A DNA stretch of 64,000 nt from positions 62,001 to 126,000 of the forward strand of contig CAMCZV010000004.1 of the NCBI GenBank assembly GCA_945888455.1, given 5' to 3'. The notes under the pieces were generated by a model. That model was not told the origin of the DNA, did no database searches, and saw nothing but the letters and a program-made list of their open reading frames with translations. Position numbers and translations under genes: made by a program. Shown piece by piece: positions 7,129 to 14,407 of this stretch (position 1 is the stretch's first letter; each line of letters begins with the position of its first letter). Source of the stretch: Candidatus Finniella inopinata. Its GTDB lineage: Bacteria; Pseudomonadota; Alphaproteobacteria; Holosporales; Holosporaceae.

Positions 7129-8319
7129 TTAATAAGAAGCATCCTCCTCTCTTGCGTTGTCTTCTGCTGAATGGGACGGTAAGACAGTGGGTTCCTTTTC
7201 AGGACCGCGTTCTAAACCATCAGAGACGTTGGTCACCAGCAAGGGGCCTGATTCTGCAGGGATCACATTGGGCAATGGCTGGGCAATGGGTTTGTGCAAT
7301 TCTTTGGTGCCAGCGGTGACAGCTGCTGGAGCAGGGGATGGGCATGATTCAGCGGTCTCGATTGCTGGGGCAGGGCTTTGCTCCACTGCTTTTTTCAACT
7401 TTTTCATGGTTGCCCGCATTTTTCGAATGCCATACAGGATATGTCGAGGAAGAGGTATGGTGATGGATTTGGACAGTTTTTGACAGTGTTCAAAGTGTTT
7501 TTTCGCCTGGAGAATATTGTTTTGGCGTAAACGGGTCTGAGCCATGCGTAATAATGCGGCCACACACAATTGTTGAATTTCGGAATTTGGGTTGTTTTTG
7601 CAATGATCGTAAATGTTCAAAAACAAGGCAAAGGCACTGTCTAAACGATTTTCGTGCAGATCCAACATGCCCAACCAATACAGGGCAAAGGGATAGTCTT
7701 CTGCCCTATGGTTTCTTACCAATTCAGCCAACATATGGCGGGCGCGCAGCATTTCCCTTTTTTCCAATAACAGCTTTGCCTGCTGTACACTGATTTCAGG
7801 CATGACTGACACACTTCCTGATGGATTTTGGCCAACAGCTGGGATAAGGGCAGAGGCGGTTACGGTGCCCGCAACCCATCCAGGAGGGACAGGCGTGATG
7901 GAAAATGCCACATTTCCCCCAATGAGTTCGTCAATGGACAGTGTTCTTGGCGCTCTTGTTTGGTTTTGTGTGTTTTCTGAATCATTTGATTCAGGCTGAT
8001 CTTGGCTGTCGTGGCCATTTGAGTTTTCGAATAAATGGTCTTCCTCATCATGGGTTTGTTCAATCGTTCTTACAGATGCCGTTGACGTTGTGGGTGCCAA
8101 AGATGGTGCAGGGATGGATTGTTCTGCTCGCGCCCTGTTCTCTAATCGGGCAATCTTTTCATAAACCTGGGCAAGTTCTGTTCTTAACGCATGAAATTCT
8201 TGATCCAAAGAAGGGGGGGAAGAATAGGGGTTTAGGGAAAAAAAGATCAGAAAAACAGCCAAGGGTTTTTTCAAAATTGTGGCCGAGATTTTGAACGAAC
8301 GAAAAGGGGAAAAATCCAT
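7129..8319 (-). CDS. Periplasmic TPR protein with N-terminal coiled coil (CpoB/YbgF-like architecture)
   Basis: 396 residues. A hydrophobic stretch (PLAVFLIFFSL) near the N-terminus is probably a signal sequence. It is followed by a short coiled coil (LDQEFHALRTELAQVYEKIARLENRAR) and an acidic, Ser/Asn-rich linker. Helical repeats come next, about residues 180-310 (ARHMLAELVRNHRAEDYPFALYWLGMLDLHENRLDSAF and similar), which read as TPR-like. A Pro/Ala-rich tail ends the protein. The order coiled coil then TPR recalls CpoB of the Tol-Pal system, but no tol/pal genes are adjacent and the match is only architectural. Confidence 0.65.
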   Translation of the reverse strand: MDFSPFRSFKISATILKKPLAVFLIFFSLNPYSSPPSLDQEFHALRTELAQVYEKIARLENRARAEQSIPAPSLAPTTSTASVRTIEQTHDEEDHLFENSNGHDSQDQPESNDSENTQNQTRAPRTLSIDELIGGNVAFSITPVPPGWVAGTVTASALIPAVGQNPSGSVSVMPEISVQQAKLLLEKREMLRARHMLAELVRNHRAEDYPFALYWLGMLDLHENRLDSAFALFLNIYDHCKNNPNSEIQQLCVAALLRMAQTRLRQNNILQAKKHFEHCQKLSKSITIPLPRHILYGIRKMRATMKKLKKAVEQSPAPAIETAESCPSPAPAAVTAGTKELHKPIAQPLPNVIPAESGPLLVTNVSDGLERGPEKEPTVLPSHSAEDNAREEDASY

Positions 8320-11323: not shown

Positions 11324-11566
11324 ATGAATATATATACGACCATCCAGGCAAAAAACAAATTGGTTAAATTGGTTGATGATGCCAATCAAACACACGAACC
11401 CATTTATATTATTGGAAAAAACCATAAGGCTGTTTTGATTGCAGAAGACGATTACAGTGCCATGGTGGAAACATTGCACATTGTTTCCGTTCCTGGATTA
11501 AAGGAATCCATTATTGATATGCATGGGCAACCGCTGCACGAGTATTCCAAAGACATCGATTTATAA
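11324..11566 (+). CDS. Antitoxin, YefM/Phd family
   Basis: 80 residues from ATG 11324 (MNIYTTIQAKNKLVKLVDDA). Upstream in-frame starts give an unlikely leader. The N-terminal half resembles the DNA-binding fold of Phd/YefM antitoxins, with the typical IIGKNHKAVLIAEDDYSAM segment; the C-terminal tail (IDMHGQPLHEYSKDIDL) is the toxin-wrapping part. The stop TAA overlaps the toxin ATG by one base (TAATG). Such antitoxins neutralise the partner RNase and repress their own promoter, probably just upstream. Confidence 0.9.
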   Translation: MNIYTTIQAKNKLVKLVDDANQTHEPIYIIGKNHKAVLIAEDDYSAMVETLHIVSVPGLKESIIDMHGQPLHEYSKDIDL

Positions 11567-11826
11567 TGTACACCGTGTTGTTTTCAAAAGAAGCCCAAAA
11601 AGATGCGGAAAAGATCAAACATTCCAACCTCAGTGACAAGTGTAAACATTTAGTCGAAGTTATCAAGGATGATCCCTTTAATAAAACACCTCCCTTTGAA
11701 AAATTACTGGGTGATTTACATGGATTTTATTCCAGACGCATCAATATCCATCACAGACTGGTTTACAGCGTGGATCCAGAAGAAAAAACCGTAAAGGTTT
11801 TACGCATGTGGACCCATTATGAATAG
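11566..11826 (+). CDS. Toxin, YoeB/Txe family mRNA interferase
   Basis: 86 residues, the usual size. YoeB-type toxins cut mRNA on the ribosome. Seen are VLFSKEAQKDAEK at the N-terminus, the family core PFEKLLGDLHGFYSRRINIHHRLVY, and the C-terminal VKVLRMWTHYE with the catalytic His-Tyr pair. It overlaps the antitoxin gene by one base. Its own end overlaps the ATG of the degraded cyclase fragment that follows. Confidence 0.93.
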   Translation: MYTVLFSKEAQKDAEKIKHSNLSDKCKHLVEVIKDDPFNKTPPFEKLLGDLHGFYSRRINIHHRLVYSVDPEEKTVKVLRMWTHYE

Positions 11827-11966
11827 CCCTTTTTTCCCCTATAAACTCATCGATCTGACGCATACGCTGCATCCCCATATTCCCACTTGGCCTTAGGGCT
11901 GTGGGTTTCACCATGATAAATCCACGATTCCAGTTTATCGCTATCGGCTTAATGATGAACTGGTGC
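11819..11966 (+). pseudogene. 5' remnant of a second cyclase-family gene
   Basis: From ATG 11819 the frame reads MNSPFFPYKLIDLTH, then TLHPHIPTWP, a TAG stop, GCGFHHDKSTIPVYRYRLNDEL. This matches the N-terminus of the intact cyclase at 12813 (MNFPYTLIDLTHALRPDIPTW, GGCGFNHD). Similarity is strong over about 100 nt and then fades, so it is a paralogous fragment or an old duplicate. It is cut off where the AT-rich HAD gene begins. Confidence 0.75.
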
Positions 11967-12000
11967 TGTGGTTTACGAAGAAATTGAGGTGAGAGGTTTT

Positions 12001-12816
12001 ATGAGGAAATTTTATACATTTTTATTATTTGCATTATTGGCGGGGTGTGCTGCTAACAACCAAACTATCACCATAAAAAGTATTCAAAGCTATGATCAGG
12101 TTAACTTTGAAAATATAACAGATCCTGCAACGGTCGTTTTGTTTGATGTGGATGAAACTCTAATTCAACCTGAAGATACATACCTCATAAACGAGCACTC
12201 GGAAAGAGGACTAAAATTTCGCCAATCTTTAATCCAAAAACATCCGGAAATAAGCAAAATGCATGATATTGGCGGTATTATACTTGATCAAGCTGCAAGA
12301 CCTCTTATAGAAAAAGAAGTGATAAATAAGATTAGTACTTTGAAAAAGAACAATATAAACGTGTTTGCAATTACAGCTATGAACACTGGTGAATATTCTA
12401 ATATAGGAAGAATGGAGAGGTGGCGTTATGAGCATTTAAAAAAACTAGGCTTTGAAGGTACTTATCAAAACGATGATTTTTATCTACAAGGATTCAAAAG
12501 AAAACCCGTATTTTATAAAAGTATAATTGCGACTGACCTTGAGGATAAAGGTGAAGTTTTAATGGCTGTTTTAGATAAAATAAACCTTAGACCTCAAAAA
12601 ATCATTATGTTTGATGATACCTTAGAGTTTCTTTATTCAGTCGAAAAAGAGTGCAAAAAGAGGGGGATCATTTTCTTTGGGTATCACTACAATGGAGCTA
12701 AGAAGAAAAATTGGGATGAAAATCTAATCTCATATCAAGCCGAGTATTTGATTAAGCATAAAAAGTGGTTGAGTGATGCAGAAGTAAAAGAAAAAATGAG
12801 AAAGAAGGCCTTATGA
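12001..12816 (+). CDS. HAD-superfamily lipoprotein, probably DUF2608
   Basis: 271 residues from ATG 12001, chosen because GAGAGG precedes it and a lipoprotein signal follows at once (MRKFYTFLLFALLAGC, lipobox LAGC). The mature part has the HAD nucleophile motif FDVDETLI, a Thr-containing motif II (VFAITAMN) and a late Asp pair (IIMFDDTLEF), as expected of an Asp-based phosphatase. The overall pattern resembles DUF2608 proteins known from Legionella, Coxiella and protist symbionts; that assignment is from memory. It would sit lipid-anchored in the envelope. The gene is clearly more AT-rich than its flanks. Its TGA overlaps the ATG of the next gene. Confidence 0.75.
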   Translation: MRKFYTFLLFALLAGCAANNQTITIKSIQSYDQVNFENITDPATVVLFDVDETLIQPEDTYLINEHSERGLKFRQSLIQKHPEISKMHDIGGIILDQAARPLIEKEVINKISTLKKNNINVFAITAMNTGEYSNIGRMERWRYEHLKKLGFEGTYQNDDFYLQGFKRKPVFYKSIIATDLEDKGEVLMAVLDKINLRPQKIIMFDDTLEFLYSVEKECKKRGIIFFGYHYNGAKKKNWDENLISYQAEYLIKHKKWLSDAEVKEKMRKKAL

Positions 12817-13496
12817 ATTTCCCCTATACACTGATCGATCTGACGCATGCACTGCGTCCAGATATTCCGACTTGGTCTGGGGGATGCGGGTTTAATCATG
12901 ATGTGCATATCGATTATGCCGATTGTGAAGGCGAAGATGCATTCCGCGTCATGACATTGGAAATGCATGCTGGGATCGGCACCCATATGGATGCGCCCAG
13001 TCACTGTTTTGCTCGCAGAAAAAGCATTCATGATTTTGATGTGAATGATTTGGTCATGCCGTGCATCGTCATGGATGTTTCTGATCAATGCCATGAACGA
13101 TACAGCCTGTCGGTTCAGAATATTTTGGATTTTGATCGCATTCATGGAGCCATTCTCCATGGCGCATGTGTGTTTGTGAAAACCGGGTGGAGCCAGTTTT
13201 GGCACGACCCTTTAAAATACCGCAACAATCATGTGTTCCCATCCGTTTCTGCTGATGCTGCGTCACTTTTACTGGATCGTGGTGTAAATGCTCTTGGTAT
13301 TGATACGCTGTCGCCCGATCGACCAGAAGATGGTTTTCCTGTGCATCGTCTGTTTTTGGGCGCAGATAAGATTTTAATTGAAAATGTAGGAAACTTGGGT
13401 AATATGCCGACAACAGGGGCCAGCGTCATGATTTTGCCCATGAAAATTAAAGATGGTACAGAGGCACCGGTAAGGCTTGTTGGATTGTTATCATGA
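12813..13496 (+). CDS. Cyclase-family metal-dependent hydrolase (KynB-like)
   Basis: 227 residues. The metal-binding signature HAGIGTHMDAPSH (about residues 51-63) is that of the cyclase family, which includes kynurenine formamidase KynB and isatin hydrolase. LIDLTHALRPDIPTW starts the fold, and ALGIDTLSPD and HRLFLGADKILIENVGNL are further family segments. The substrate cannot be told from sequence; no tryptophan or kynurenine gene is near. ATG overlaps the upstream HAD stop (ATGA), but given the remnant upstream this arrangement may come from insertion rather than an old operon. Confidence 0.85.
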   Translation: MNFPYTLIDLTHALRPDIPTWSGGCGFNHDVHIDYADCEGEDAFRVMTLEMHAGIGTHMDAPSHCFARRKSIHDFDVNDLVMPCIVMDVSDQCHERYSLSVQNILDFDRIHGAILHGACVFVKTGWSQFWHDPLKYRNNHVFPSVSADAASLLLDRGVNALGIDTLSPDRPEDGFPVHRLFLGADKILIENVGNLGNMPTTGASVMILPMKIKDGTEAPVRLVGLLS

Positions 13497-13552: not shown

Positions 13553-14407
13553 ATGAAAAAACTTTTATTAGTTGCGATTGGATTGTTAAGTGCGGTTGTT
13601 TCGGCCCAAAATTGCTTTGTGGCACAGACAGCACAGGAAATCATCGCCCAAGAAGGTGACACGAATTTGACCTATGCGCCTATGTCTACTTTTAAAATAC
13701 CACTTAGTTTAATAGGATTTGATTCTGGCATTCTTGTCGATGAAATGCAGCCTGTATGGTCTTTTAAAGAAGGTTATGTTGATTGGCGAGATGTTTGGAA
13801 GCAAGATCAAACTCCAAAAAGCTGGATCAAAGAATCCTGCGTGTGGTACAGCCAAGTTTTGACGCAAAAATTGGGGATGCCCGTATTTCAAAATTATGTC
13901 ACGCAATTTGATTATGGCAACAAGGATGTTTCGGGTGATTCTGGGCAAAACAATGGCCTGAGCCAATCCTGGTTGGGCAGTTCTTTGCGTATATCCAGTG
14001 CCCAGCAATGTACTTTTTTACAGCAGATGCTGGCAGGCAAATGGCCTATTAAGCCGCAAGCGTATGCCATGACGAAAAAGATTCTGTTTGTTGAAGAATT
14101 GAAAAATGGCTGGATATTGTATGGAAAAACGGGAACGGGCAGCCTGATCAACCAAGATGGCAGCAAAAATCCGGATCTGAATCATGGCTGGTTTGTAGGC
14201 TGGATTGAAAAAGGTCACCAATACATTGTTTTCTCTAATCACCTAGAGGACGATAAAAAAGAGGATGTGGGGGCGGGGCGACGGGCCAAAGCCGATGCCA
14301 TAACCCGACTAAATGCCATCATCGATCAAATGGATGATACAGGGCACGCAGGAGCACAGAAAGAGAAAGCGCAATCGGTCCAAGAAGAATCAAAGCAACA
14401 GATATAA
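13553..14407 (+). CDS. Class D (OXA-type) beta-lactamase
   Basis: 284 residues with a signal peptide (MKKLLLVAIGLLSAVVSAQN). Class D landmarks are all present and in order: STFK at 45-48 with the catalytic Ser and the carbamylated Lys, SCV at 95-97 (SxV), YGN at 121-123, a Trp at 140 before LRIS, and KTG at 192-194 in YGKTGTG, then HGWFVGW. It should hydrolyse beta-lactams in the periplasm; a penicillin sensor such as BlaR1 is excluded by size and lack of a membrane sensor part. The last 25 or so residues, rich in Lys, Glu and Gln, go beyond the usual end. An AT-rich promoter-like stretch lies just upstream. Confidence 0.93.
   Translation: MKKLLLVAIGLLSAVVSAQNCFVAQTAQEIIAQEGDTNLTYAPMSTFKIPLSLIGFDSGILVDEMQPVWSFKEGYVDWRDVWKQDQTPKSWIKESCVWYSQVLTQKLGMPVFQNYVTQFDYGNKDVSGDSGQNNGLSQSWLGSSLRISSAQQCTFLQQMLAGKWPIKPQAYAMTKKILFVEELKNGWILYGKTGTGSLINQDGSKNPDLNHGWFVGWIEKGHQYIVFSNHLEDDKKEDVGAGRRAKADAITRLNAIIDQMDDTGHAGAQKEKAQSVQEESKQQI

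Follow-up and report, generated by a model that had tools for sequence, protein, structure and literature searches.

The locus examined here raises the question of how an AT-rich gene of the HAD fold came to lie between a broken piece of a cyclase gene and an intact cyclase gene in a bacterium with a genome of 0.81 Mb. The window, by which we mean the whole stretch of 64,000 nucleotides that was analysed (G000:C4:62001-126000), comes from a bacterium with a tiny genome that is related to the protist symbiont Holospora. It was compared with two genomes of the same genus, G001 and G002, which appear to correspond to the MAG record VGCF01000046 and the Holosporales MAG record CANHKV010000004, and with five genomes of the same family (G003-G007), of which G005, G006, and G007 seem to be Holospora obtusa, H. 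undulata, and H. curviuscula, respectively. The order of genes in the window is infC (which we take to be the gene ahead of yefM), yefM, yoeB, the remnant, the HAD gene, the cyclase, and a class D beta-lactamase gene:

11324-11566, + strand: yefM antitoxin gene (Pfam PhdYeFM_antitox, 49.6 bits, cut-off 29.8), syntenic in G001 and G002
11566-11826, + strand: yoeB toxin gene (Pfam YoeB_toxin, 47 bits, cut-off 27), whose last codons give ATGAATAG
11830-11917, + strand: remnant of the resident cyclase (5' end without its start codon, with a TAG at 11894), 93% identity over 86 bp to the G002 cyclase
11918-11992, + strand: remnant of a GNAT acetyltransferase gene (3' end, closing with the TGA at 11990; left edge placed approximately)
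12001-12816, + strand: HAD-fold gene, DUF2608 (PF11019; Pfam 97.3 bits, gathering cut-off 22.6)
12813-13496, + strand: intact cyclase gene (Pfam PF04199 Cyclase, 116.6 bits, gathering cut-off 23.1)
13553-14407, + strand: beta-lactamase gene, class D as predicted from the profile score (NCBIfam bla_class_D_alt, NF000270, 305.1 bits, equivalog cut-off 280)

A composite remnant behind yoeB

The remnant is a composite of the 5' end of a cyclase gene and the 3' end of a GNAT gene. The cyclase piece spans about 29 codons (approximately 11830-11917) and is followed by the GNAT 3' end, which runs to the TGA at 11990; the two pieces share one reading frame, in which the TAG at 11894 is the sole internal stop. 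A sequence-only reading of the same DNA had described this stretch as about 40 codons of a cyclase homolog with an in-frame stop directly before the HAD gene. The homology and the stop stand; the length does not, as the cyclase piece ends after some 29 codons and the rest is the GNAT 3' end. Local alignment of positions 11819-12000 gave scores of 142 with the 5' end of the G002 cyclase, 95 with positions 12813-12960 of the window (the comparison that had been put forward earlier as a check), and 94 with the GNAT 3' end, against background maxima of 27, 28, and 30, respectively, from 679 other 182-nt window pieces on both strands. The match of the cyclase piece to the G002 gene has a blastn E of 1e-30, and that of 11834-11917 to the window's own cyclase a tblastn E of about 1e-9.

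The GNAT tail aligns with G005 at 86% over 95 bp and with the copies in G006 and G007 at 85-90%, and the G005 GNAT protein, when used as a query, independently recovers window positions 11891-11989. In same-family genomes the GNAT 3' ends that match the tail, with 85-90% DNA identity, sit upstream of cyclases. The genome's other GNAT gene (G000:C2:74444-74953) was considered as the source of the tail and is not supported, with just 87% identity over 53 of 97 bases; the G005 copy aligns at 86% over 95. The possibility that 11918-12014 represents a dispersed repeat found upstream of cyclases was also rejected, as reading of the locus L037 shows it to be a GNAT 3' end. The cyclase 5' end meets the GNAT 3' end near 11918, and no microhomology was definable at this left join, the true donor sequence not being in hand.

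The gene before the remnant is the yoeB of the yefM-yoeB pair, and the cyclase piece begins a few bases past its stop, lacking the start codon region of its own that the G002 cyclase has. The earlier reading had pointed to a start context common to the remnant and the intact cyclase, and any argument for a common origin from this context falls because the left copy is yoeB sequence: TTATGAAT at 11817 is the end of yoeB (..HYE-stop) and is the same in G001 and G002, where no cyclase directly follows, and ATGAATAG at 11819 is likewise the yoeB 3' end. On the right, TTATGAAT at 12811 is the HAD stop overlapping the genuine cyclase ATG. The match between the two contexts is coincidental, and they have two origins. 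After yoeB, G001 has a methyltransferase and then a Nudix gene, and G002 has about 680 bp with a decayed methyltransferase gene and then the cyclase; this methyltransferase stretch between yoeB and the cyclase is absent from the window. One full-length cyclase is found at the same yoeB-to-beta-lactamase position in both G001 and G002, so that the full-length yoeB-side copy that the earlier reading had proposed to seek in relatives is present.

The HAD gene and the intact cyclase

The AT-richness of the HAD gene, noted in the earlier reading, is borne out by a GC content of 0.328, against 0.444 in the window as a whole; the HAD N-terminus has, by eye, a lipoprotein signal. The HAD gene shares 94.5% DNA identity with a gene on the contig L062, from a MAG that bears the label "Candidatus Jidaibacter," with differences at 45 of 813 sites and 15 of 271 residues, and its dN of 0.026 relative to a dS of 0.205 points to purifying selection. 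HAD matches in same-family genomes have 24-33% identity only, and G001, G002, and the window's own genome (C2:83345) carry merely a distant paralog at 29-32%. Among the 385 class-level genomes sampled, six, including the window's own, had matches at 1e-20 or better, and the best non-self match had 59% identity over about half the protein. By these comparisons the HAD gene is foreign to the genus and laterally acquired, and its source was probably another intracellular bacterium, via DNA exchange. A search of the literature on DUF2608 found no paper.

The gene order in L062 is GNAT, HAD, and cyclase. Its GNAT has 94% protein identity to a Holospora one and its cyclase 92% DNA identity to that of H. 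curviuscula, and because the contig carries these Holospora-like genes the Jidaibacter label of the bin is no proof of its host. The identity between the window and L062 falls from ~0.95 within the HAD gene to ~0.7 at the start of the cyclase.

The cyclase downstream of the HAD gene is indeed intact, as first described; with the Arylformamidase model (TIGR03035) it scored 53.7 bits, below the equivalog cut-off of 223.05. In cyclase trees, from which L070 (internal stop) was left out, it groups with the G002 cyclase with support of 100/100, and its grouping with the L062 cyclase is rejected (p-AU 0.0006). The HAD gene and the intact cyclase have different histories, and the transfer of both as a single block from a Jidaibacter-like donor is rejected because the cyclase groups with that of G002 and not with that of L062. 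Two other cyclases were unusual in their own right: the G002 gene (L035:7111-7959, minus strand) has an in-frame mid-domain insert of ~50 residues that is missing in the other eight aligned cyclases, and the gene at L070:496-700 has its stop at a conserved Trp (window cyclase position 21), which may reflect a pseudogene or a MAG sequencing error.

That the intact cyclase and the G002 cyclase are sisters would suit an account in which the locus had one resident cyclase, now the intact copy, whose 5' end was duplicated when a GNAT tail and HAD gene were inserted into it. We consider this improbable, as G002 is matched more closely by the remnant than by the intact copy, and the intact cyclase has 80% identity to that of G002, compared with 0.78-0.97 between the window and G002 over thrS, infC, yefM-yoeB, and the RND gene. 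The 5' ends of the remnant and intact cyclase differ at 15 of 84 sites, which is more divergence than a duplication during the insertion would leave, unless decay of the remnant was rapid. Over these 84 bp the remnant sides with G002 at 11 informative sites and the intact copy at four (p = 0.12); since this test is not significant, the identification of the remnant as the resident copy, or true ortholog, rests mainly on its place beside yoeB. An attempt to place the remnant in a tree from 84 bp gave no supported position. A clean internal crossover in the intact cyclase was likewise sought by sliding identity to G002 and rejected, the profile being uneven with no single break. Elsewhere in the window, the product of 7129-8319 has 64% protein identity to its G002 counterpart, and the thrS and 5274-6515 genes have >93%.

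In the beta-lactamase gene the identity to G002 rises from 0.696 to 0.959 at 13823, and none of 2000 permutations gave a break as strong (0/2000); compared with that of G002 the gene is a mosaic, broken at this position. At 46 sites in the N-half G001 matches the window but not G002, and at 18 it matches G002 but not the window. G002 is thus further from G001 on this half, and it is feasible that the tract was replaced in G002, or in both.

Proposed origin of the scar

We favour, with modest confidence, a reading in which gene replacement by recombination left the locus as its scar: a foreign GNAT-tail/HAD/cyclase fragment would have taken the place of the 3' portion of the resident cyclase. 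The ancestor would have had yefM-yoeB, a single cyclase, and the class D beta-lactamase gene, as in G002, and the incoming fragment, from a related intracellular bacterium, would have carried GNAT, HAD, and cyclase genes and possibly a beta-lactamase gene. On its right side the fragment would have recombined with homologous resident sequence within either the cyclase or the beta-lactamase gene, in the latter case near 13823. On its left side, the fragment end inside the GNAT gene would have been joined to the resident cyclase after ~29 codons; the join itself is present in the DNA, and the process is one that we infer. A single event could have produced all the pieces, with the right end anchored by homology and the left joined without much homology, and its outcome would be a dead cyclase-GNAT fusion followed by HAD and cyclase genes that are both intact. 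Perhaps the GNAT tail was kept since the ribosome-binding region of the HAD gene directly follows it. A separate deletion would have taken the methyltransferase region that lies between yoeB and the cyclase start in G001 and G002.

Replacement is supported by the composite remnant, by the full-length cyclase that G001 and G002 have at this position, by the HAD gene of L062 (94.5% DNA identity) in its GNAT-HAD-cyclase order with the drop in identity at the cyclase start, by the differing histories of the HAD gene and cyclase, by the mosaic break, and by the varied occupants of the GNAT-cyclase junction at other loci and the low dS of these middle genes relative to their flanks (see below). Against it are the facts that the L062 cyclase is not the window's and the donor is not in hand, and that the right-hand boundary is not fixed. 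The two dead ends of the remnant record the donor order, GNAT before HAD before cyclase. The earlier suggestion that the 3' end of one cyclase copy had been replaced holds in part, in that a resident cyclase is cut after ~29 codons and is then followed by a GNAT 3' end, the acquired HAD gene, and a second cyclase.

The chief rival is a single ordinary deletion, which would also yield the exact join. If the locus had once been an array of yoeB, cyclase A, an unspecified stretch, GNAT, HAD, cyclase B, and beta-lactamase genes, one deletion could have joined the opening ~29 codons of cyclase A with ~24 codons from the end of the GNAT gene. This reading is favoured by the small size of the genome (0.81 Mb) and by other decay (e.g., the methyltransferase remains in G002), and the tandem cyclase pair envisaged in the sequence-only reading is a form of this array. 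We regard such a deletion as possible but unlikely, as side-by-side cyclases occurred at none of the 44 other cyclase loci examined (0/44; L095 is one broken gene), G001 and G002 have one cyclase at this position, and the mosaic break at 13823 requires a separate event. The same count speaks against insertion of the HAD gene into a tandem pair. Genomes with two cyclase copies have them on different contigs or >200 kb apart; a pair could still have arisen within the window's own lineage.

Reduced symbiont genomes undergo ordinary pseudogene decay, and the truncated genes and in-frame stop in this genome resemble it, but here truncation coincides with the gain of a foreign gene. In homology-facilitated illegitimate recombination, as the relevant parts of two reports describe it, homology anchors one end and the other is joined without much homology (PMC5361080, PMC3240628), and one of these describes effector displacement by this route in the T6SS clusters of Vibrio cholerae (PMC5361080). 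As in those clusters, a homology-anchored module would here have displaced part of a resident gene and left a row of remnants next to the newly arrived one (PMC5361080). The two cases differ in that immunity genes thought useful are kept in V. cholerae, according to that part of the account, whereas the ends left here are those of a dead cyclase and a dead GNAT gene, with the homologous end located only loosely. The scar is ordinary genome decay plus gene transfer, an event of a known kind.

The junction between GNAT and cyclase genes

A same-strand GNAT gene lies upstream of the cyclase at 12 of the 44 other cyclase loci, and a further eight distinct GNAT-cyclase loci were found among 36 loci (seven from a search of the genus Legionella, plus L142; L113 and L114 repeat L063 and L066). 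Half of the 20 loci (10/20) have a gene, referred to here as X, between the GNAT and cyclase genes, and the other 10 have none. The X genes encode the regulator TipAS (four loci), VOC (two), and MepB, an ABC transporter, HAD, and a methyltransferase (one each); the TipAS, VOC, MepB, and ABC families were confirmed by Pfam, and the methyltransferase of L142 was named by eye from its sequence.

For TipAS, the dS between H. obtusa and an Odyssella-labelled MAG is 0.007, compared with 0.673 for the flanking GNAT gene and 0.494 for the cyclase, and between H. obtusa and Legionella L066 it is 0.079 (GNAT 0.534, cyclase 0.483). Corresponding values are 0.072 for the X genes of L061 and L066 (GNAT 0.245, cyclase 0.489) and 0.220 for the VOC genes of L038 and L065 (GNAT 0.637, cyclase 0.579). 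The dS of X was below that of both flanks in four of the five pairs tested on both sides, the exception being L063-L066 (X 0.042, GNAT 0.510, cyclase 0.014). Between the window and L062 the HAD gene has a dS of 0.205 vs. 1.155 for the cyclase, the comparable flanks in this pair being the cyclase and the short GNAT tail only. Among relatives the gene in the middle of GNAT-X-cyclase is exchanged: X differs less between hosts than the genes on either side of it do, as movement of X by recombination in the conserved flanks would predict.

Tentatively, then, the junction between the double-GNAT gene and the cyclase may be an exchangeable cargo slot across intracellular bacteria of different classes, a suggestion that we advance with less than even confidence. 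The conserved flanks would serve as recombination arms that swap small cargo, and the window would represent one swap gone wrong on the left; the sharers of the slot would be the Holospora family, the Odyssella-labelled MAG, the Jidaibacter-labelled MAG, and Legionella. The presence of at least six kinds of X gene at one junction, together with a short repeat that by eye flanks TipAS on both sides in L037, could instead reflect a dedicated mobile element or site-specific integration that moves X genes at this junction. We think this very improbable, given that the loci that were read showed no integrase or transposase gene within the slot and that the L037 repeat is missing around VOC and HAD.

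In L067, one of the 10 loci without X, the only stretch between the GNAT and cyclase genes (7916-8001) is, by eye, the one that follows TipAS in L037, and L067 has probably lost a TipAS gene. Long, mostly same-strand runs with shuffled order recur in L037, L039, L040, L062, and L066 (Holospora, Legionella, and MAGs of other intracellular bacteria), their recurring genes being GNATs, GrpB-GNAT, TipAS, VOC, MepB, Nudix, ABC transporter, and beta-lactamase genes.

A limited search of open-licence papers found nothing on the GNAT-cyclase slot. Amoeba-associated bacteria exchange genes laterally, as parts of two reports describe (PMC3423634, PMC3220658), and the slot is like the exchange described there in that unrelated intracellular bacteria (the Holospora family, Legionella, and the Jidaibacter-labelled MAG) share genes. 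Unlike that exchange as described, it concerns one defined slot between two conserved genes. The slot is more interesting than the scar event itself: the scar leads to a place where protist-dwelling bacteria would exchange a middle gene, and the GNAT-cyclase slot offers a concrete, countable place in which to study gene trade among intracellular bacteria of two proteobacterial classes.
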